Source: Plantibacter sp. VKM Ac-2880 (GTDB lineage: Bacteria > Actinomycetota > Actinomycetes > Actinomycetales > Microbacteriaceae). Taken from it: a stretch of 64,000 bases of DNA. The stretch spans positions 558,001 through 622,000 of the forward strand of contig NZ_JADKSJ010000002.1 in NCBI RefSeq assembly GCF_015351235.1. Reading direction: 5' to 3'. Positions 45,985-58,114 of the stretch are shown here, piece by piece. The notes beneath the pieces are model-generated. The model saw only the letters and a list, made by a program, of their open reading frames with translations, was not told where the DNA came from and made no database searches. The position numbers and the translations under genes are program-made. Each line of letters starts with the position of its first letter. Positions within the stretch are counted from its first letter, which is position 1.

Positions 45985-47013
45985 CTAGGGGATGACGTAC
46001 ACCTCGACCGCGAGGTCGGCTGGGATGTCCGTTGGCGCTCGCCATTCGAGCACGACCCATTGGAGGGCGACACCCGTCGTGTCCCGGGTGAGACTGTCAA
46101 GGCTCATCCCGGTCGGGGGTTCGAGAATACTCGGCGAGGGTGAACACACGACCAGGAGACAGCCCCACCGTCCGCCGTTCGACCAGTACTTCTCTGCTCC
46201 GAAGCTGGAGGCTCGTCCAGGCGTTCCCGTTGCCGGGACTGACGCACCCGAATTCGAGAACGCGGTGGTCAATGCGGCCCCGTCTCCTGGGCGGAGCTCA
46301 CACAGTTGGGATCCGCAATACGGGTCTGACCCCGCGCTGCCCGTCGACCGAAACGACTCGAGTAACCAGCTGTATCTCATGGTGACTTTGTCGGCCTGAA
46401 GAAAACCGCGCCCACCGAGGCTGTTCAGTCCGCGATGCAGGTCGCGCAGCTCAGCACCAGGGTTTGTGGATGATGTCGTGTTCGCGTTGACGATGCCACT
46501 CGATGCCGGATTGAGTCGGGCGGCCGCGAAGGAGCCGAGTACGGGTGCCGTGCTCCAGGCGAATTGCTGACCGTTGTTGTATTCCCCTCGCCACGAGGTC
46601 GCCTTGATCATTCCGGCGAGGTGGCTCGTGTCGCTGCAACTCCACAACCGGACGCCCAGCTGGCCGCGGGCTCCCGCGATTGCTTGGACCGGGGCGAAGC
46701 TCGAATCACGCACGACCGGAAGTTCGAGTACGCGCATCGTGGTGGATCCGCCGCCGGCGGCGGGTACCGCGACGGACGGGAATTCCTTGAGCGGATACAC
46801 GTTCGGGTGCGTGGCGGCGGACGGCACCGCGCACCAGTCGCCAATCGTTGCAGCCGAGGTCGAAACGTTCGCCTTCGAGGTGAGGTAGGCACCCGTTGTC
46901 GCTGCGGGGATGCCGACCAGCACGAGCAGCGCCATGAGGGCTGCAGCGATGACCACGCCGAGTGGACTTCTCCGAGGCGCGTGCTGGAGGGCTGCGACGG
47001 CCGGAATGCTCAT
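45985..47013 (-). CDS. Exported protein of SipW cluster (342 aa)
   Basis: N-terminal hydrophobic signal segment (LGVVIAAALMALLVLVGIPA) followed by ATTGAYLTSKANVSTSAATI, which resembles the T-x-A-x-T-x ending of SipW-dependent signal peptides. The mature part has seven Cys residues (DWC, LWSC, YCGSQLC, WGC, VVC), likely disulfide-bonded, and many Ser/Gly/Asn residues. No family recognised. Last of four exported proteins behind the signal peptidase; starts 4 nt after the previous gene. Base composition is lower in GC than neighbouring operons. Could be the tip or minor component of a surface structure, which is inference. Confidence 0.65.
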   Translation of the reverse strand: MSIPAVAALQHAPRRSPLGVVIAAALMALLVLVGIPAATTGAYLTSKANVSTSAATIGDWCAVPSAATHPNVYPLKEFPSVAVPAAGGGSTTMRVLELPVVRDSSFAPVQAIAGARGQLGVRLWSCSDTSHLAGMIKATSWRGEYNNGQQFAWSTAPVLGSFAAARLNPASSGIVNANTTSSTNPGAELRDLHRGLNSLGGRGFLQADKVTMRYSWLLESFRSTGSAGSDPYCGSQLCELRPGDGAALTTAFSNSGASVPATGTPGRASSFGAEKYWSNGGRWGCLLVVCSPSPSILEPPTGMSLDSLTRDTTGVALQWVVLEWRAPTDIPADLAVEVYVIP

Positions 47014-47017
47014 CCTC

Positions 47018-47653
47018 CTACCGCCCAGCCTGAGTGAGGGTACCGTCCATCGTGAACGCGCCGACGGTGGTTCTCATGGAACTGCGTAAGTATGTCGCGG
47101 CGTCGGTGGAAGCGGAGCTGGTGGCGATCACGACGGTGAAAGCCAAGACGCAGCTCCCTCCCGGAGGCAAAGCGGTCGTGGAGGAGACAGGCATGCTGAT
47201 GGCTCCCGGCGTGGTTGTGAGCGCGCCGACAGAACACGGTCCGGAAAGAACAGCGGGCGTGATCGAAAGCAGGTTCTTCGCTGCGAGATCCGCCCAGAAC
47301 GTCCCCGCAGCGAACGTGCTCGCGAGCGTTGCCGGCGTCGCCGAGGTCGAAGCGTTCGTGAGCGAGAAGGTGAACTTCTGGCCGCGCTGACCGGGGACAT
47401 AACCGGTGCTGCCCGCTGGAACGATCGAGCCACTGCTTCCGCTACTTGTTGCGATCCACTCCGACGATTGGGTGATGGAGAGGGTGAGCCCCCCGGCGGT
47501 CACGGACTTCGGGGGCTGGGTCGTGGTGTCATTGAGAAAAGCGAAACTGCCCGGCGTGCCACTGAGGAGGATGATGCCGGCTGTGAGCGCGATCGCCGCG
47601 ACGGCAAGTGGGGTGAGCACGCTCCGACGAGCTCTCTCCTGGATTCGGGACAT
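47018..47653 (-). CDS. Exported protein of SipW cluster (211 aa)
   Basis: ATG 47653. Signal segment LTPLAVAAIALTAGIILLSG then GSFAFLNDTT, the short tail seen after SipW-type signals. Mature domain is Thr/Ser-rich and beta-predicted (GLTLSITQSSEWI; KFTFSLTNASTSATPATLAS) with two Cys (GPCSVG; GSCVLAF). Alternate-type exported family by pattern. Four nt separate it from the next gene. Confidence 0.68.
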   Translation of the reverse strand: MSRIQERARRSVLTPLAVAAIALTAGIILLSGTPGSFAFLNDTTTQPPKSVTAGGLTLSITQSSEWIATSSGSSGSIVPAGSTGYVPGQRGQKFTFSLTNASTSATPATLASTFAAGTFWADLAAKNLLSITPAVLSGPCSVGALTTTPGAISMPVSSTTALPPGGSCVLAFTVVIATSSASTDAATYLRSSMRTTVGAFTMDGTLTQAGR

Positions 47654-47657
47654 CGTC

Positions 47658-48245
47658 CTACTTGGATCTATTCTGCGTGAGGGTGTACTCGATTCCAATG
47701 CTCACCGTCCCTCCTGTGGCGTCTCCGTATTGCCCGTCAGCGCCCCATGGGTAGGAGATTTCGATCACGACGGGGACCGTGCGCTTCCCGTCTTGGCCGG
47801 AGAAGGTGGGAACGGCACCGGCGGTACCGTCGATTGAGACCACCGTAACGGACAGGGCTTTCGAGAGAGCGGTGTCTGCCGGCTTCGGGTTCGCTGGAAT
47901 GCTGAGCTTCGGGGTGACCTGAAGAGTCGCCGTGAGGGTTTGGCCCACCAGCTCGATCGGCAGCGCTGTCGTTCCTGTCAGCACGTCACCCGGCACGAGG
48001 GCCGTGTTGGAGAACGGGACGCTGAAGGTGCTCGGGCGGCCGGGGATCCGCTGGCTCAAGCGCCAGTCGACGGAGCCTGAAGTGAGCGGCCCCAGGTCGA
48101 GGGTTCCGGTTTCGATGCCGCGTTCCGGAGACACTGCTGATTCCTGCCACGTCGCGAGCGTTCCGGACCCGCCGAAGAGCAGCCCGACTCCGAGTGCCCC
48201 GAGGAGGGCGGAAACCGTCAGGCCGCGTGTGGTGGATCGCATCAT
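47658..48245 (-). CDS. Alternate-type signal peptide exported protein (195 aa)
   Basis: Signal with GALGVGLLFGGSGTLATWQE, the motif of SipW-dependent (alternate-type, RER_14450-like) exported proteins. Mature part has LDLGPLTSGSVDWRLSQ, IPGRPSTFSVPFSNTALVPG and a C-terminal ISYPWGADGQYGDATGGTVS that mirrors the next gene upstream (FPFGTTGQYNDAE). Clearly a paralogue of the 187-aa protein. Ends 4 nt before the 211-aa gene. Confidence 0.8.
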   Translation of the reverse strand: MMRSTTRGLTVSALLGALGVGLLFGGSGTLATWQESAVSPERGIETGTLDLGPLTSGSVDWRLSQRIPGRPSTFSVPFSNTALVPGDVLTGTTALPIELVGQTLTATLQVTPKLSIPANPKPADTALSKALSVTVVSIDGTAGAVPTFSGQDGKRTVPVVIEISYPWGADGQYGDATGGTVSIGIEYTLTQNRSK

Positions 48246-48328
48246 CAGCCTTCCCTCGAGTGCTGCTGCGGGGCGCCGTCACCTCCGCTGAACGGCGGCC
48301 AGGTGTCCGGTCACCGGTGGCGTCCAGA

Positions 48329-48892
48329 CTAGCTGGCTGCAGGGACCTGCGTGAGCGTGTACTTCGCGGAGAATACGGCCTTGGCGACCTCAGCGTCGTT
48401 GTACTGACCCGTGGTGCCGAAGGGGAACGTGACGCTGATCACGACAGGGACGGTGGCGTCCTGGGTAGTCGTGGCCGTTGAACCGGCAATGCCATTGACC
48501 GAGACGACCTTCACCTGGAGCGCCCCTTCGAGGGTGGCGTCGCCGTCGACGATCGCGTCGGTGACATCGAGCTTCGCGTTCATGTTCTGTCCGGTGACGT
48601 CGACGGGAACGGAGACCGTGGTCGTGAGGACGTCACCGGGGACGATCGGGCCGGTGAAGGACTGTGCAGCGCCAGCGCCGTTCTTGATGCTCCACGCATC
48701 TGTGATGGTGCCGAGAGCGAGGCTACCGGTCTGGATCTCCTGCGACGTGGCTGCGTTGTCCGTCCAGTAGGCGAGGGTCCCCGCGCCGCCGAGAAGAAGC
48801 GCGACGCCGACACCACCAGCGATCGCGGCGATCGCGACCTTCTTCGTGGAAGAGGACTTCACAGCGGTGGCGGTGGTGGCGTTCATGTTCAT
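48329..48892 (-). CDS. Alternate-type signal peptide exported protein, likely major subunit (187 aa)
   Basis: ATG 48892. Lys-rich start, then AIAGGVGVALLLGGAGTLAY followed by WTDNAATSQEIQTGSLALGT, a textbook SipW-dependent signal. Mature domain of about 145 residues with no Cys, beta-rich, similar to TasA/CalY-like small secreted proteins in form. First exported gene after the long control region with direct repeats, so it may be the most expressed and form fibres; that is inferred by analogy with Bacillus TasA. Confidence 0.83.
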   Translation of the reverse strand: MNMNATTATAVKSSSTKKVAIAAIAGGVGVALLLGGAGTLAYWTDNAATSQEIQTGSLALGTITDAWSIKNGAGAAQSFTGPIVPGDVLTTTVSVPVDVTGQNMNAKLDVTDAIVDGDATLEGALQVKVVSVNGIAGSTATTTQDATVPVVISVTFPFGTTGQYNDAEVAKAVFSAKYTLTQVPAAS

Positions 48893-48999
48893 TCTCTTTT
48901 CGATGCAAGTGGGACTGGCTGGAGCTCGGCGCTGTTCGCCGGTGATTCCCATCAAAGGACACCGACCGCAGGGTTGAGCCACCCAGAGACGAAGGCGTT

Positions 49000-49021
49000 C
49001 CTCAAGATCGCCTCAAGATCG
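49000..49021. promoter_or_regulatory. 11-bp tandem direct repeat upstream of exported-protein genes
   Basis: CCTCAAGATCG twice without a gap (49000-49010, 49011-49021); a third imperfect copy CTCAGGATC begins at 49051. Period of one helical turn suits an OmpR/PhoB-type response regulator. About 110 nt before the 187-aa protein gene. Confidence 0.55.
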
Positions 49022-49175
49022 GCGGAGATCCTCCCCCATCTCAGCATTGGCTCAGGATCTGCTTGAGAGCGCTCTCATTAGCCCCGGACGCCAGCGTGCG
49101 TGACTGAAGCATCTGCATGGTCTGACCACGTCTGCCCAGCGTGCTCAGCGCCGGCCGGGGCGCCCGCTGACGCAA

Positions 49176-49904
49176 TCAGGAGCGACGAGCACGCACCATC
49201 GTGCGGACACCAGAGAACAGGGCAAAAGCGATGAGGCCGATGCCGATGACCCGCGCACCGAGAGTTCGCGCGTCGCTCGTCACCCCTGAGGTGAGGTAGC
49301 CGAGGAACGGGGCCCAGTACCAGGCCTCTCCCCTCACCTGCACAGCACGCACGAGCTCGGGGTCGGATGCGTCGTTCGCGTCGCCTTGCGTTCGGAACTC
49401 GAGCCCCTCCTGCGTGACGACCGTCTCGATGATGCGATGCGTCACCACCTCGGGCTCCCCCGAGCGCAGCTGGTAGGTGACGACGTCACCGACCTCGATC
49501 GTTGCAGGGTCTACCGGTCGGACGACCACCATCGTGCCCGGCGGCATCTCGGGACGCATCGACCCGGTGAGGATCGTGTACGGAGTGGAGCCTGTCACGC
49601 GCGGCACCGCCACGAACGCGACGAGAAGCACGACCGTGACCACAACAACGGTCCAGCTGGCAACGCGGAGTAGGACGCCGCCGATGCGAGCCGGCGTCCA
49701 GCGTTCCGTCTCCTGAGAGAGACGGTCGGCCGCGGCCTCGGTGCCCCGTTCCTCGTCCTGGGCTGGGGCGGCGTCGGAGCGCTTGGAGGCGACGTGAGCA
49801 CCGACCTGTCGTGTGCGCCTCGAGCGGCGCTTGCGCGTCAACTCTTCGCCTGTCGCAGGCCCGCGATCATCATCGGCGTCGGCGCTTCCGTCCTTCGTCG
49901 TCAC
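49176..49904 (-). CDS. SipW-type signal peptidase I
   Basis: 242 residues. Basic, low-complexity N-terminal 70 residues, one membrane helix (about 78-100), catalytic Ser115 in TGSMRPEM, and His156 in VVTHRI in place of the bacterial Lys, the Ser-His arrangement of ER/archaeal/SipW enzymes. GDVVTYQLRS and TQGDANDASDP complete the pattern. A second hydrophobic helix near the C-terminus (VIGIGLIAFALFSGVRTMVR). Would cleave the alternate-type signals of the four exported proteins downstream. AIM24 gene ends 61 nt upstream, so co-transcription with it is possible. Confidence 0.88.
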   Translation of the reverse strand: MTTKDGSADADDDRGPATGEELTRKRRSRRTRQVGAHVASKRSDAAPAQDEERGTEAAADRLSQETERWTPARIGGVLLRVASWTVVVVTVVLLVAFVAVPRVTGSTPYTILTGSMRPEMPPGTMVVVRPVDPATIEVGDVVTYQLRSGEPEVVTHRIIETVVTQEGLEFRTQGDANDASDPELVRAVQVRGEAWYWAPFLGYLTSGVTSDARTLGARVIGIGLIAFALFSGVRTMVRARRS

Positions 49905-49965: not shown

Positions 49966-50706
49966 CTAGTTGAATAGACCGCCGAGGAGTCCTTGTCGGC
50001 CATCGCTCGAGCCGCTGTTCCCGCTTCCGCTGGCGGCCTGGGCCGGCTTGGGGCGCCCCTCGCTGGGCTGCACGACGACGAACCCCGGTCCGTGGAACGC
50101 CAGTTGGAAGGCCTCTCCAGTGCCGCCGCGCAACATGGAGCGGAACGTGGTCGTACTCACGATGCTCGGCGTCAGGTTCGACGACCAACATACGGCGGCC
50201 TGCGGATCGACGTAGGTGGGCTGTTGCGAGCAGTCGAGGACGAGTGGTTGGCCGTCGCACGACACCGCGACGGTGCCGCGCCCGGAGATCTGCAAATTGA
50301 ACAAGCCGCCGGCCATCATCCCGGCACCGCGCATCATCGTGATGTCCCAGTCGAGGGTGTGGTCGAACGCGAGGAGACTGTCCCCGTTGACGGTGAGCCC
50401 TTCCTCCGCGAGTTCGACCGTGAAGATGTCCTGTGCGTCCCGGGCGAGGAACACCTCACCCTGGCCGGACATGCGCATGAGCGGTGCGCCCTCGCCAGTC
50501 ACGGCCTGCTTCAGAAATTTGGTCATGGAGCCGGAGCTCTCATGCTCGAACTGGATCTCCCCCTGGTAAGCGACCATCGCGCCCTTCGCGGCGATGACGT
50601 CGAGCCCGCGTGTGTCCACGCGCAGCATCTTGCTCGACTGCCGAACCCAACGTTGTCCCGGGGCGGCGCTCTCACGGTTCGCTTCAGCGAACAGTTCACT
50701 CTGCAT
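49966..50706 (-). CDS. AIM24-family protein
   Basis: 246 residues; ATG 50706 with AAGGAGAG. Beta-rich AIM24/DUF124 fold: VRQSSKMLRVDTRGLDVIAA, MVAYQGEIQFEHESSGSMTK, GEVFLARDAQDIFTVELAEE, LDCSQQPTYVDPQAAVCWSS, AFQLAFHGPGFVVVQPSEG. The C-terminal 30 residues are Gly/Ser-rich ending LLGGLFN, a hydrophobic tip that may bind membrane or partners. Function of bacterial members is not established. Promoter resembles that of the DUF600-like operon. Confidence 0.85.
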   Translation of the reverse strand: MQSELFAEANRESAAPGQRWVRQSSKMLRVDTRGLDVIAAKGAMVAYQGEIQFEHESSGSMTKFLKQAVTGEGAPLMRMSGQGEVFLARDAQDIFTVELAEEGLTVNGDSLLAFDHTLDWDITMMRGAGMMAGGLFNLQISGRGTVAVSCDGQPLVLDCSQQPTYVDPQAAVCWSSNLTPSIVSTTTFRSMLRGGTGEAFQLAFHGPGFVVVQPSEGRPKPAQAASGSGNSGSSDGRQGLLGGLFN

Positions 50707-54173: not shown

Positions 54174-55379
54174 TCAGCCGGTGGCGATGAAGGCCCGCCC
54201 GTTCGTGGACACCGTCACCGGCTCCCGCCCAGGCGAGACGAACACCGCTGTCCCGTACTCGAGCACCATGGTCTCCGTGCCCTGTTCCACCCGCGCCGTC
54301 CCGGCGGTGACGACGATTACCGCCGCCTCTCCGCCAGCGAGGCCGGTCGCCGTCCCGGGGCCGATCCGGGCGAGGAGGAAGTCGTCGACCGGCACCGGGT
54401 ACACGACCCCACCGCCGGTGCGCGCAATCGGCTCGACGAACGGGATCGGCAGTGGCTCGAAATTGAGAACGGCGAGGAGCTCCGGCACGTCGACGTGTTT
54501 CGGCGTCAGCCCTCCACGCAGCACGTTGTCGCTCGACGCCATGACCTCGACCCCGAAGCCGGAGAGGTACGCGTGGATGTTCCCAGCGGGCAGGAACAGC
54601 GCCTCACCCTCCTGCAGGGTCACCAGGTTGAGGAGCGCCGCGACGACGATGCCGGGGTCCCCCGGGTACTCTTCGGCGAGCTGCAGGATGAGCTCGCGCT
54701 CGGCCGACCAACGTGCCGGACCGTCGTCGTCCCCGAGACCTTCGCCGACCGTGCCGGTACCGGCGGCACCGACGAGGGCTGCGACCGCGCCGGGCATCTG
54801 TCGTTCGAGCACTGCCCGCACCGTCGATTCCAGCCCCTCATCGACCAGCTGAGCCACGAGCGCCTCGAGCACAACCCGGTCCGGCACGTCGACGAGGCTG
54901 GCCAGATGCGTCAGCAACTCGCGCGACTCCTCGACCGCCCGGAATCCGCAGAGGGCACGGAAACCGTCCTGCAGAGCGACGATGATCTCCGGCTTGTGCC
55001 AGGCGTCCTTGTAGTTCCGATGCGGCGCGTCCAGCGGCACGCCGCGCGAGTTCTCGTCAGCGAACCCGGCCCTGGCCCGGTCGGGGGTGGGGTGGACCTG
55101 GAGGGAAAGCGGCCTCGCAGCAGCCAACAGCTTCAGCAGGAACGGCATCCTGGAACGCCCACCGAGAGCCGCGTCGGGGTCCGACGCGATCCACTCGTTG
55201 AGACTGCTCGAAAGACCGCGATCCTGACCGACGAGTTCGGTCACGCTGCCGGGGTGTGCCCCGAGCCAGAGTTCCGCCTGAGGCGAACCGTCGGCGGGCA
55301 CGCCGAGCATCTCCGGGATCGCCGTCGTCGACCCCCAGGCATATCGCTTGGGGTCGCTGGTGATCCGGTGTAGCCCCAT
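54174..55379 (-). CDS. manA: Mannose-6-phosphate isomerase, class I
   Basis: 401 residues from ATG 55379 (a start 12 nt earlier at 55391 is also possible). Class I ManA motifs: KRYAWGSTTAIPEMLG, ELWLGAHPGS, LSLQVHPTPDRARAGF (zinc ligands Gln and His), HKPEIIVAL (Glu ligand), FLPAGNIHAYLSGFGVEVMA, SSDNVLRGGLTPKHVDV. Zinc enzyme converting mannose 6-phosphate to fructose 6-phosphate. Start overlaps the stop of the mannanase gene by 1 nt; last gene of the mannan operon. Confidence 0.93.
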   Translation of the reverse strand: MGLHRITSDPKRYAWGSTTAIPEMLGVPADGSPQAELWLGAHPGSVTELVGQDRGLSSSLNEWIASDPDAALGGRSRMPFLLKLLAAARPLSLQVHPTPDRARAGFADENSRGVPLDAPHRNYKDAWHKPEIIVALQDGFRALCGFRAVEESRELLTHLASLVDVPDRVVLEALVAQLVDEGLESTVRAVLERQMPGAVAALVGAAGTGTVGEGLGDDDGPARWSAERELILQLAEEYPGDPGIVVAALLNLVTLQEGEALFLPAGNIHAYLSGFGVEVMASSDNVLRGGLTPKHVDVPELLAVLNFEPLPIPFVEPIARTGGGVVYPVPVDDFLLARIGPGTATGLAGGEAAVIVVTAGTARVEQGTETMVLEYGTAVFVSPGREPVTVSTNGRAFIATG

Positions 55380-58114
55380 CAGCGCACCCATCGGCGACCG
55401 CGGGCCAGCAGCAGGCCACCGATCGCGAGGAGCGCGAGCGCACCGACGATCCAGGGCGTGGCCTCCAGGCCGGTGCGGGCGAGGTCTTCCGTCGACACCG
55501 TCGTGTCGGTGCCGCCCGCTCCGCCGGGTTGCCCCGTGCCCGGCTGCCCCGTGCCCGGTTCCGGCTCCACCGCCGCGACCGTCGTGACGATGTCATCGAC
55601 CAGCAGGGTGCCGGCGCCCTCGCCACCGAGGTAGAACCCGATCTGGGTGACGGAGGTCGGGTCGAACGCCGCCTCGCCGGCCCACGCCGGTGGGGCGAAG
55701 GAGGAGAACGGGATCTCGACCAGCTGCCAGCCCTCGCCCTCGATGGGCGCGACCGTCTCCCAGTAGGTCCCTCGCGTCACGAACTGAACGGTGACGTCAT
55801 CGCCCGGTGTCCCCTGCACCCAGAACTCGAGCCCGGTGTAGCCCCACCAATCCTGTGGCGTCTGGAATGTGCGGACGACACCGGCGTATCCGGGACCGGC
55901 GAGATCGTACGCGGCTGTCATCGCCTGCGTTCCGGTGTCCGGGTTCGTCGTGATCGACGGGGTCACCGCACCGCCCCCGGTATTCCGCACGTAGGTGGCC
56001 TGCAACGCGGCGTCATCGGCGTAGGACTCGAAGTCCTCGACGACGAGCGGCTCGCTCGGGAGGGGCTTCATGAGGAAGTCCGCCGCTCCCGTGCTCGAGG
56101 CGGTCGCCCCTGCTCCGTTGACCGCGGTGACCGACCACCAGTACCGCTGTCCTGGAGTGAGGGCGACCGTTGGCGTGATGGAGGGGTTTCCGATGCCGTC
56201 GACGACGACGACCGGGTTCCCGAGGTCGACCTGCGCCGCAAGCGTGAAGCGGTAGTACGCCGCACCGGTCGCCGGCTCCCAGGTGAAGGTCGGGGTCGCG
56301 GTCACGTCGACGGTGCCGGATGCGGGCGAGATCGATGCGAACGCCGCCGGTGGCCCGCTCGGGGCGTCCACCGCCGACCAGATGGTGGCTCGCGAAACGC
56401 TCGCGCCGGCGGCGAGCGTCACCCTGAGGTACGGCCCCACCAGATCGCGCGCGGCCACCGTGCCGTCGGGTCCGACCTCGGACGGTGCGGTCTCCCAGGC
56501 CGAACCGTCAGCGCTGGACTCGACCACGACCGACCCGGATGCGATGAAGGACGCCGCCAAGAGCCGGTCCTGCTTCCAGGTGACGCTGGCTCCATCGGAG
56601 GCTGCGACCACACTCGTCCCATCCGCCCGTGGAACGATCGTCGTGCCGTCGTGCGCCTCGGTGAGCAGCCAGGACTCGAGCGGGTCCACGAGCACGCGGG
56701 TGTCGGTCTCGGTCGCGAGCGGGTCCGACAGCGCCGCATCGGCTCCGGCCCCGTCGATCGCGACGACGCGGTAGACGGCTCCCGTCGGCGAGGTGAAGTC
56801 CGTCGCGGACCCGGCGTCGGCCCGGAGCGTGCCGGTGTCCACCGCGGTCCACGAGGTCCCGTCGAGTGAAAGCTCGAGCCGGTATGAGACCGCGCCGCCT
56901 GCCCCGCGCCATCGGATCGTGTTGATGCCGTCCGCGCGGTCGACCGCCGTGATGAGCGGTGTCCCGACGGCGGGAGTAGCCGGCTCTGCACCGATCGCGG
57001 CCGCGTAGGCGGTGATCGCGGAGACCCGGGCGCGCTCGGCATCGGTGGCACCGGGTGCATGGATCGTGAATCCGTCGTCGTGCGGGACGAGCCCGCCACG
57101 GTCGTTGTTCCCGAACAGCGACCAGAACAGCATGCCGGTCACGTTCGGGTCGGCGACCAGCGGTTCGAGGAGTGCCGGGCTCGCAGCGGTGGAGGCGTAC
57201 TCGCCAGCCAGGTACACCTTGCCCGCGGCGGTGACCGTGGCCGCGTCAGCCGACACGCGTGCGGCGGTGGGCGGGTAGTAGTGCACATCGACGATGTCGA
57301 GTTCCGGCACGGAGAGCGTGTCCGGGTCGATGTCGAATCGCCGACCGGCCGCGACGAGCTGCTGCGGGGCGCGTTCCTTGATGAACGCGACCTGCCGGTC
57401 GATCCACGGGGCGGTCATCCCCTCCAACTCGTTCCCGAGCTCCCACGCCATGATCGTCGGGTCCTCGATGTACGGGACGCCGGTCAGCGCGTTCGTCCGC
57501 TGCAGGATCGCGTCGACGTAGGCCTGGTAGGCGGCGATCGGCCGCTCGTCGGTGTAGAAGTCGGCCGACGTCAGCCCGAACGGGGTCGTGAAGTCGCGAT
57601 GCCCGCCGTGGTAGTACTCCCACTCGTCGGTGAGCGGGAGCACGAGGCGGATGCCGAGCTTGCCGGCGTATGCGACGGCGAAGTCGATCGTCGCGAACGC
57701 CTCCTCGTTCATCTGCCCGAGGCTCGGCATGATGGCCAGGGGGTTCGCGCCGTCCTGGCCCGTCGAGGTCATCATGTGTGTCCGAACCACGGTCGAACCC
57801 ATCCGGGCCGCCGCGTCGAGGGTGTCGGCGATGCGGAAGGCCGTCGGGTAGTCGACCCCGCCCACGTTCTCGTCGAGACCGAGCCAGTAGATGTTCGGGC
57901 CGCTGAACCGGAAGGTCTCACCGTCGAGCACGAGGCGGGAACCGTCACGCTCGACGAACGAGGTGTTGAGTGAGGTCCAGTCGACCGGGGCGGCAGCGGC
58001 CGGTGCCGCGAGCGCCGGAAGCAGCGCGGCGGTGACGGCCGCCGCGACCATGCCGGCGGCCAGGCGGCCGCTCGTGTTGCGGTGGGGTGGGCGGGGGTCC
58101 GGGGTGCGGTTCAT
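55379..58114 (-). CDS. Wall-anchored GH5-like endo-beta-mannanase
   Basis: 911 residues. Signal peptide (MVAAAVTAALLPALAAPAAA), catalytic TIM barrel at about 45-425 with FRFSGPNIYWLGLDENVGG, LVLPLTDEWEYYHGG, acid/base Glu in MAWELGNELEG and nucleophile Glu in YLAGEYAST, a pattern of GH5 mannanases. Then FN3-like modules (about 430-500 and 600-695), a carbohydrate-binding-like domain (about 700-850, LVVEDFESYADDAALQATYV; WWGYTGLEFWVQGTPGDDV), a GTGQPGTGQPGG linker and a sorting signal LARTG-helix-RGRRWVR. Cuts mannan at the cell surface. GH family should be confirmed by profile search. ATGA overlap with the ROK gene. Confidence 0.82.
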   Translation of the reverse strand: MNRTPDPRPPHRNTSGRLAAGMVAAAVTAALLPALAAPAAAAPVDWTSLNTSFVERDGSRLVLDGETFRFSGPNIYWLGLDENVGGVDYPTAFRIADTLDAAARMGSTVVRTHMMTSTGQDGANPLAIMPSLGQMNEEAFATIDFAVAYAGKLGIRLVLPLTDEWEYYHGGHRDFTTPFGLTSADFYTDERPIAAYQAYVDAILQRTNALTGVPYIEDPTIMAWELGNELEGMTAPWIDRQVAFIKERAPQQLVAAGRRFDIDPDTLSVPELDIVDVHYYPPTAARVSADAATVTAAGKVYLAGEYASTAASPALLEPLVADPNVTGMLFWSLFGNNDRGGLVPHDDGFTIHAPGATDAERARVSAITAYAAAIGAEPATPAVGTPLITAVDRADGINTIRWRGAGGAVSYRLELSLDGTSWTAVDTGTLRADAGSATDFTSPTGAVYRVVAIDGAGADAALSDPLATETDTRVLVDPLESWLLTEAHDGTTIVPRADGTSVVAASDGASVTWKQDRLLAASFIASGSVVVESSADGSAWETAPSEVGPDGTVAARDLVGPYLRVTLAAGASVSRATIWSAVDAPSGPPAAFASISPASGTVDVTATPTFTWEPATGAAYYRFTLAAQVDLGNPVVVVDGIGNPSITPTVALTPGQRYWWSVTAVNGAGATASSTGAADFLMKPLPSEPLVVEDFESYADDAALQATYVRNTGGGAVTPSITTNPDTGTQAMTAAYDLAGPGYAGVVRTFQTPQDWWGYTGLEFWVQGTPGDDVTVQFVTRGTYWETVAPIEGEGWQLVEIPFSSFAPPAWAGEAAFDPTSVTQIGFYLGGEGAGTLLVDDIVTTVAAVEPEPGTGQPGTGQPGGAGGTDTTVSTEDLARTGLEATPWIVGALALLAIGGLLLARGRRWVR

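Follow-up and report, generated by a model that had tools for sequence, protein, structure and literature searches.

TasA-type fibers are best studied in Bacillus. The available portion of PMC9674648 places the donor strand of TasA at residues 28 to 38, with F29, I32, and F39 packing into the next two subunits, and that of PMC10151520 starts the mature chain at residue 28. The latter source also gives the Bacillus cereus operon as sipW-calY1-bc_1280-calY2, and the accessible part of PMC13082335 describes BC1280 (CapP) as a chaperone-like protein on which assembly of the TasA-CalY filament depends. This sipW-calY1-bc1280 (capP)-calY2 operon is the closest known system to the locus reported here, which lies in Plantibacter sp. 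VKM Ac-2880 on a 64,000-nucleotide stretch of DNA, the window (G000:C2:558001-622000, in a genome, G000, of 4.03 Mb and 7 contigs). On the minus strand of the window, from 49904 to 45985, five open reading frames (ORFs) encode a SipW-type peptidase (P1) and then, tightly packed, four exported proteins (P2 to P5). We propose that this operon makes a SipW-processed, TasA-like donor-strand surface fiber with P2 as its main subunit and P5 as its terminal unit, a reading that we regard as evenly poised between right and wrong.

All five ORFs were coding-like in a codon-usage script, and the locus described in the initial annotation, a SipW-type peptidase with four exported proteins, is real (Table 1). 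Gaps of 4 bases separate P3 from P4 and P4 from P5, while 83 bases separate P2 from P3 and 283 bases separate P1 from P2. The start of P4 is uncertain and could be the TTG at 47698 or, by the codon-usage script, 47620.

Table 1. Genes of the SipW-type operon in the window and the tandem repeat found with them
Feature	Position	Strand	Assignment	Basis
P1	49176..49904	-	SipW-type signal peptidase, GTG start	TIGR02228 score; leads the gene set in 14/15 P5 loci
P2	48329..48892	-	SipW substrate, probable main fiber subunit	TIGR04089 and TIGR04088 scores; AlphaFold2 model; W43/I53 invariant
P3	47658..48245	-	Second SipW substrate, close relative of P2	TIGR04089 score; hhalign 100% with P2
P4	47018..47653	-	Third SipW substrate, diverged from P2/P3	hhalign with P2 and P3
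P5	45985..47013	-	Lineage-specific exported protein, conserved Cys, diverged SipW-type signal, probable terminal unit	15 genomes
Tandem operator-like repeat	49001..49017	-	CTTGAG-N5-CTTGAG, 11-bp period	Single site genome-wide

P1 fits the S26B-type profile TIGR02228 (84.3 bits; cutoff, 51.85) and scored 74.2 bits against NF046067, the Bacillus SipW equivalog, under the cutoff of 190. Its sequence contains TGSM and THRI, which we take to hold the catalytic Ser and His of the S26B type, with Ser-His replacing Ser-Lys. Two of its neighbors had been credited with clear alternate-type signals, and P2 (90.3 bits) and P3 (78.4 bits) indeed exceeded the cutoff of 60 for TIGR04089, the alternate-type signal family. 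P2 also passed TIGR04088 (35.6 bits; cutoff, 19), which P3 missed at 16.1 bits. P4 is not a TIGR04089 member (29.0 bits). P5 matched no NCBIfam model, TIGR04089 included; its best Pfam match reached 13.9 bits against a cutoff of 27, and no PDB sequence match was found. The fourth protein had been described as matching no family, and this agrees with the searches of Pfam, NCBIfam, and PDB. The same had been said of the third protein and did not hold: when family alignments were compared with hhalign, P4 aligned over nearly its whole length and scored 98.5% with P2 and 98.2% with P3, the P2-P3 value being 100%. Judged by these alignments, P2, P3, and P4 are one superfamily and P5 is unrelated to them. 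The hhalign value of P5 was 12.5% or less with P2, P3, P4, or P6 (a sixth protein of related loci) and 14.9%, over 36 columns of the signal only, with the P2/P3/P4 superfamily enlarged by the third-slot proteins (S3) of other SipW loci.

AlphaFold2 modeled P2 as a beta-sandwich (predicted local distance difference test [pLDDT], 76; predicted template modeling score, 0.64), the predicted layout being a putative signal to about A41, a putative donor strand at about residues 42 to 50, and the sandwich at residues 51 to 184. With the cut that we infer after A41, W43 would be the second mature residue and I53 would follow 10 residues later; both are invariant in 20/20 aligned P2/P3 rows. Among complete rows (the cut P4 row of L043 and the slot-4 row of L059, which starts after the signal, were omitted), a strong hydrophobic residue occupied the place of W43 in 8/8 P2, 12/12 P3, and 12/12 P4 rows. 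A second hydrophobic anchor at +10 or +11 was found in all of these rows (8/8, 12/12, and 12/12) and in 13/14 S3 rows. The P5 rows had it in 2/13 cases at +10 and 1/13 at +11, and the window's own row (P0005) had none at either position; the P5 counts for anchors and signals cover 13 rows rather than 14, since the row from G007 lacks the N terminus, and the P5 of G494, found later, is in none of these sets. Downstream of the putative cut, the N termini of P2 to P4 bear both hydrophobic anchors of a donor strand (compare F29 and F39 of TasA), and P5 mostly has no second one.

P5 relatives were detected in 14/349 Microbacteriaceae genomes sampled, this one included (7/85 genera), and in 2/396 genomes of an order-level sample, this one and G494, from another family. 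A scan of named genomes found P5 in three Mycetocola species, whose loci are already counted among the 14, and the total is 15 genomes. In profile searches of six-frame ORFs, 14 of the 15 P5 loci had sipW, P2 and/or P3, P4, and P5 in this order and with the same orientation; the 15th, in G287, is truncated by a contig start inside P4, and at L043 nothing stands before P4. Nine of the 14 ordered loci have both P2 and P3, and five have one of the two. Opposite-strand genes lie between sipW and P2 at L033, L034, L016 (the same place as L035), and L037. Genes missed by the gene caller (the whole of L069, P5 of L081, and P6 of L074) were recovered by the six-frame searches. Recurrence in 14/15 loci makes the order more than chance. 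Gene order in other Microbacteriaceae, proposed in the initial annotation as a check, is thus conserved, and the likeness in logic to Bacillus sipW-tasA that had been suggested is supported.

In a SipW tree of 37 rows, loci of the P5 type clustered, with 3 label changes, and 0/500 shuffles gave a number as low. The locus of G008 lies inside this cluster; it lacks both P4 and P5, keeps sipW, P2, P3, and P6, and is likely a loss of the P5 type. L060, on a long branch, joined G494. Since the starred branches of this tree force at least 2 changes, a single origin of the P5 type is not established.

TIGR04089 matches were found in 137/348 Microbacteriaceae genomes sampled (136 over the cutoff) and in 49/85 genera, and in 0/6 congeners. 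Twenty contrast loci with a TIGR04089 match all contained SipW and had no P5, and 11 of them held a long protein of the S4 type. Seven of the 20 (L059, L061, L063, L064, L069, L072, and L075) read P2/P3-S3-S4-S6-SipW, with SipW last, and five further loci added one more of this order, L082. The S3, S4, and S6 slots were chosen by eye and later searched as profiles, so matches in their source rows are expected. When slots were compared, P4 scored 98.1% with the third-slot proteins and P6 scored 98.6% with the anchored ones, and P5 scored 4.6% with the long ones; S4 scored 96.5%, over 154 columns, with the P2/P3/P4/S3 superfamily. The long slot-4 protein of L073 contains ricin-B lectin domains (45.1 bits; cutoff, 25.6), with an fn3 match under the cutoff (21.8 versus 25). 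Because 11/20 loci without P5 hold another long protein, one of them lectin-bearing, the P5 slot looks like a variable end-piece.

P5 itself has 6 Cys residues, of which C126, C233, and C238 are invariant in 14 aligned rows (P0005 included) and C61 is present in at least 90%; its C terminus is well conserved around LQWVVLEW. The protein could instead be an assembly factor like TapA of B. subtilis or CapP of B. cereus that starts or paces polymerization near the membrane or wall, an explanation that we consider rather unlikely. Like CapP, P5 is an unrelated exported protein within a SipW operon, and it is lineage-restricted, as TapA and CapP are said to be in the partial texts available. However, those texts give TapA a TasA-like N-terminal strand, whereas P5 mostly lacks the second anchor, and they describe the C-terminal domain of CapP as disordered, whereas that of P5 is conserved. 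The lectin domains of a slot-4 protein elsewhere also fit an adhesin better than a chaperone. We prefer a tip over an assembly factor, with moderate confidence, because the slot varies and in one case carries lectin domains, and because the second anchor, which an initiator would need, is missing from most P5 rows.

The operons of 13/14 relatives go beyond the gene set first described by adding a sixth gene, P6, after P5; neither G007 nor this genome has it at the locus. All 11 aligned P6 rows (of 13 P6 detected) have L-x-x-T-G near the end, and behind it come a hydrophobic segment and basic residues. By reading, the ends of P2 to P5 have no LPxTG-type motif with a tail such as the shaft of a sortase pilus would carry, and only the P6 of relatives has one. 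In the fiber that we propose, the P1 peptidase would cut each precursor after the Ala that precedes the first anchor, and the N-terminal strand released in this way from each subunit would complete the beta-sandwich of the next. The shaft would consist of P2, perhaps with P3, and P4 would be a minor or adaptor subunit. P5, taking a strand and giving none, would cap the fiber as a tip or adhesin braced by its Cys residues. The P6 of relatives, a distantly related protein with the LxxTG sorting signal, would tie the fiber to the wall through sortase. This genome, lacking P6, must then hold or release its fiber otherwise.

Alternatively, the copy of the operon in this genome might have no anchor and be incomplete, in decay, or recently acquired. 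P6 is absent, and G007, likewise without P6 at this locus, has its P5 split over two frames. Six congeners had no P1 at the ortholog level (best E value, 3.6e-15; 28% identity), no P5, and no counterpart of the AIM24-family gene that neighbors sipW, so the stretch was gained in this genome or lost in the others. Against decay, the five frames are open and coding-like, the tandem repeat is intact and unique, and the last two gaps measure 4 bases each. We consider a defective or recent copy quite unlikely.

Several results weigh against a TasA-like fiber with P5 at its end. PF12389, the TasA/camelysin family (gathering score, 22.5), was missed by all four exported proteins: P2 reached 19.7 bits, P4 reached 10.8, and P3 and P5 had no match. 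The P2 match is confined to residues 16 to 62, the signal and first strand. At an E value of 0.01, 9/20 P2/P3 rows matched, and one relative from another locus (L062:6606-7166) narrowly passed at 23.1 bits over residues 12 to 89. Of the hidden Markov model searches suggested in the initial annotation, the one for alternate-signal families thus succeeded with P2 and P3 and the one for TasA/CalY fell short. Homology of the mature parts of P2 to P5 to TasA is partial at most. The Pfam name, Peptidase_M73, would make P2 to P5 camelysin-type proteases, for which the P2 score can be cited; with a match below the cutoff that covers signal and first strand only, and a family name that reflects annotation and not tested activity, we regard this as highly improbable.

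The suggested structure prediction yielded a beta-sandwich for P2, but a Foldseek search of the PDB with this model found no match at an E value of 0.001 or better, and TasA was not among the matches listed. A weak match (E value, 0.17) was to the archaeal bundling pilus 7ueg, whose subunits are joined by donor strand. The model of P5 is weak (pLDDT, 64) and likewise had no PDB match in Foldseek at an E value of 0.001 or better. The loss of the second anchor is not peculiar to P5, since slot-4 proteins elsewhere keep it in only 4/7 rows. With an N-terminal profile built from P2 to P4, S3, and S4, P0005 scored 15.1 bits and the 13 P5 rows scored 1.0 to 23.7. The 130 control proteins included dozens of unlabeled SipW substrates; among the controls judged by eye not to be such substrates, the highest score was 12.6, and a P6 protein, not counted as a SipW substrate, reached 14.4. 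Six of 13 P5 rows exceeded the first value and 5/13 exceeded the second, so the SipW-type signal of P5 is weakly supported. A P6-profile search of this genome returned 13 matches, all to the C-terminal part of P6 only. The link of P6 to the subunit superfamily depends on the alignment set: P6 scored 94.7% with P3, 50% with P2, and 0.7% with P4, S6 alone scored 6.4% with P3, and the larger P6-type set (P6 plus S6) scored 96.6% over 109 columns with the P2/P3/P4/S3 superfamily.

No fiber has been seen to date, and we infer fiber formation, the position of P5 at the fiber end, and the pairing of its Cys residues. The four proteins could instead be SipW-exported monomers or wall-bound adhesins that form no fiber, in line with the absence of a sequence match to a solved fiber subunit and of a Foldseek match at the threshold above; we consider this unlikely. 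A wider proposal, which we put forward tentatively and with more doubt than belief, is that Microbacteriaceae make donor-strand fibers without a chaperone or usher and with exchangeable tips. P5 would then be a new disulfide-braced tip family that replaced a modular tip in one lineage, and a related sortase-anchored base would be present except where lost. If the loci with a TIGR04089 protein do build fibers, a large actinobacterial family has a fiber system whose end-piece varies and which, at most P5 loci, includes a partner held by sortase, and the start, end, and wall attachment of a donor-strand fiber in a single-membrane cell become testable.

The tandem repeat lies 125 to 109 bases upstream of the P2 start codon. 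It is the sole match in the genome, and 100 shuffles of the window gave 0 matches. Having been noticed in the window itself, it was then sought in 15 upstream regions and was present in 5 (the window, G023, and three Mycetocola, before P2) and absent from the 10 others. A response-regulator gene follows the operon in the G023 and Mycetocola loci (OmpR-type domains were tested for L015 only). From the layout of the repeat and the regulator gene adjoining the operon in several relatives, we guess that an OmpR-type regulator may bind the 11-bp tandem. A relative of the regulator is encoded elsewhere in this genome (62% over residues 6 to 150; the closest one lies at G000:C2:168520-168951), and the 6 congeners, all without the operon, have one too. 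At L015 (9681-10493 and 10519-10899; Mycetocola lacteus) and L012 (5101-5853 and 4682-5071; G007), genes for a response regulator and for a small protein resembling Hpt adjoin the operon; the small proteins scored 24.2 and 22.5 bits against a cutoff of 24.6.

Other genes were observed around this and other SipW loci. The AIM24-family gene adjoining sipW (window 49966-50706, minus strand) scored 140.4 bits against PF01987. Amid a run of sugar-related genes, window 55379-58114 (minus strand) encodes a large secreted protein, glycoside-hydrolase-like by eye; at its C terminus it matches the P6 profile in the sorting-signal region (E value, 3.6e-5). A second SipW locus of this genome, L014 4888-8055 (G000:C2), lies outside the window, about 95 kb from the operon. 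It encodes two SipW-type substrates and then a 431-amino-acid protein with an N-terminal SipW-type peptidase part (TIGR02228, 59.1 bits) and a C terminus with LPRTG and a hydrophobic tail; the P1 matches of the 6 congeners sit in frames of 465 to 513 amino acids, near that length. L060 7785-8912 and L062 9213-10334 encode SipW-like peptidases with a C-terminal fusion that opens in an apparent SipW-type signal (AAFSD and AAFTD), by which each appears to combine a peptidase with its own substrate. Another small exported family, with a GxWLxCRGP-like motif (L066 7326-7811 and L071 4759-5271; 161 and 170 amino acids), follows the third-slot protein at SipW loci that lack P5.

Literature searches, in which many papers were covered at the level of title or summary, found no description of such loci in actinobacteria. 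Chaperone-usher pili have subunits joined by donor strand (available portion of PMC9674648), as P2 to P4 would be; unlike those systems, the operon encodes neither chaperone nor usher. By score, P2 and P3 belong to the TIGR04089 (exp_by_SipW_III) family, whereas P4 and P5 do not, and the P5 subtype was found in 14/349 family genomes. The B. subtilis tapA-sipW-tasA operon likewise joins a SipW-type peptidase to adjacent substrates, and the N terminus serves as donor strand in TasA and putatively in P2 to P4; however, Bacillus has one main subunit plus TapA, and P2 to P4 fall under the Pfam TasA/camelysin cutoff. Compared with the B. cereus operon, the Plantibacter locus has three related subunits, an actinobacterial host, and P5 in last place with conserved Cys residues, P5 and CapP being likened by description, and 13/14 P5-locus relatives add P6 with its sortase signal. 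Like the B. cereus operon, it begins with its own SipW and encodes related fiber subunits (two in B. cereus, putative here) that need no sortase, together with one further exported protein.

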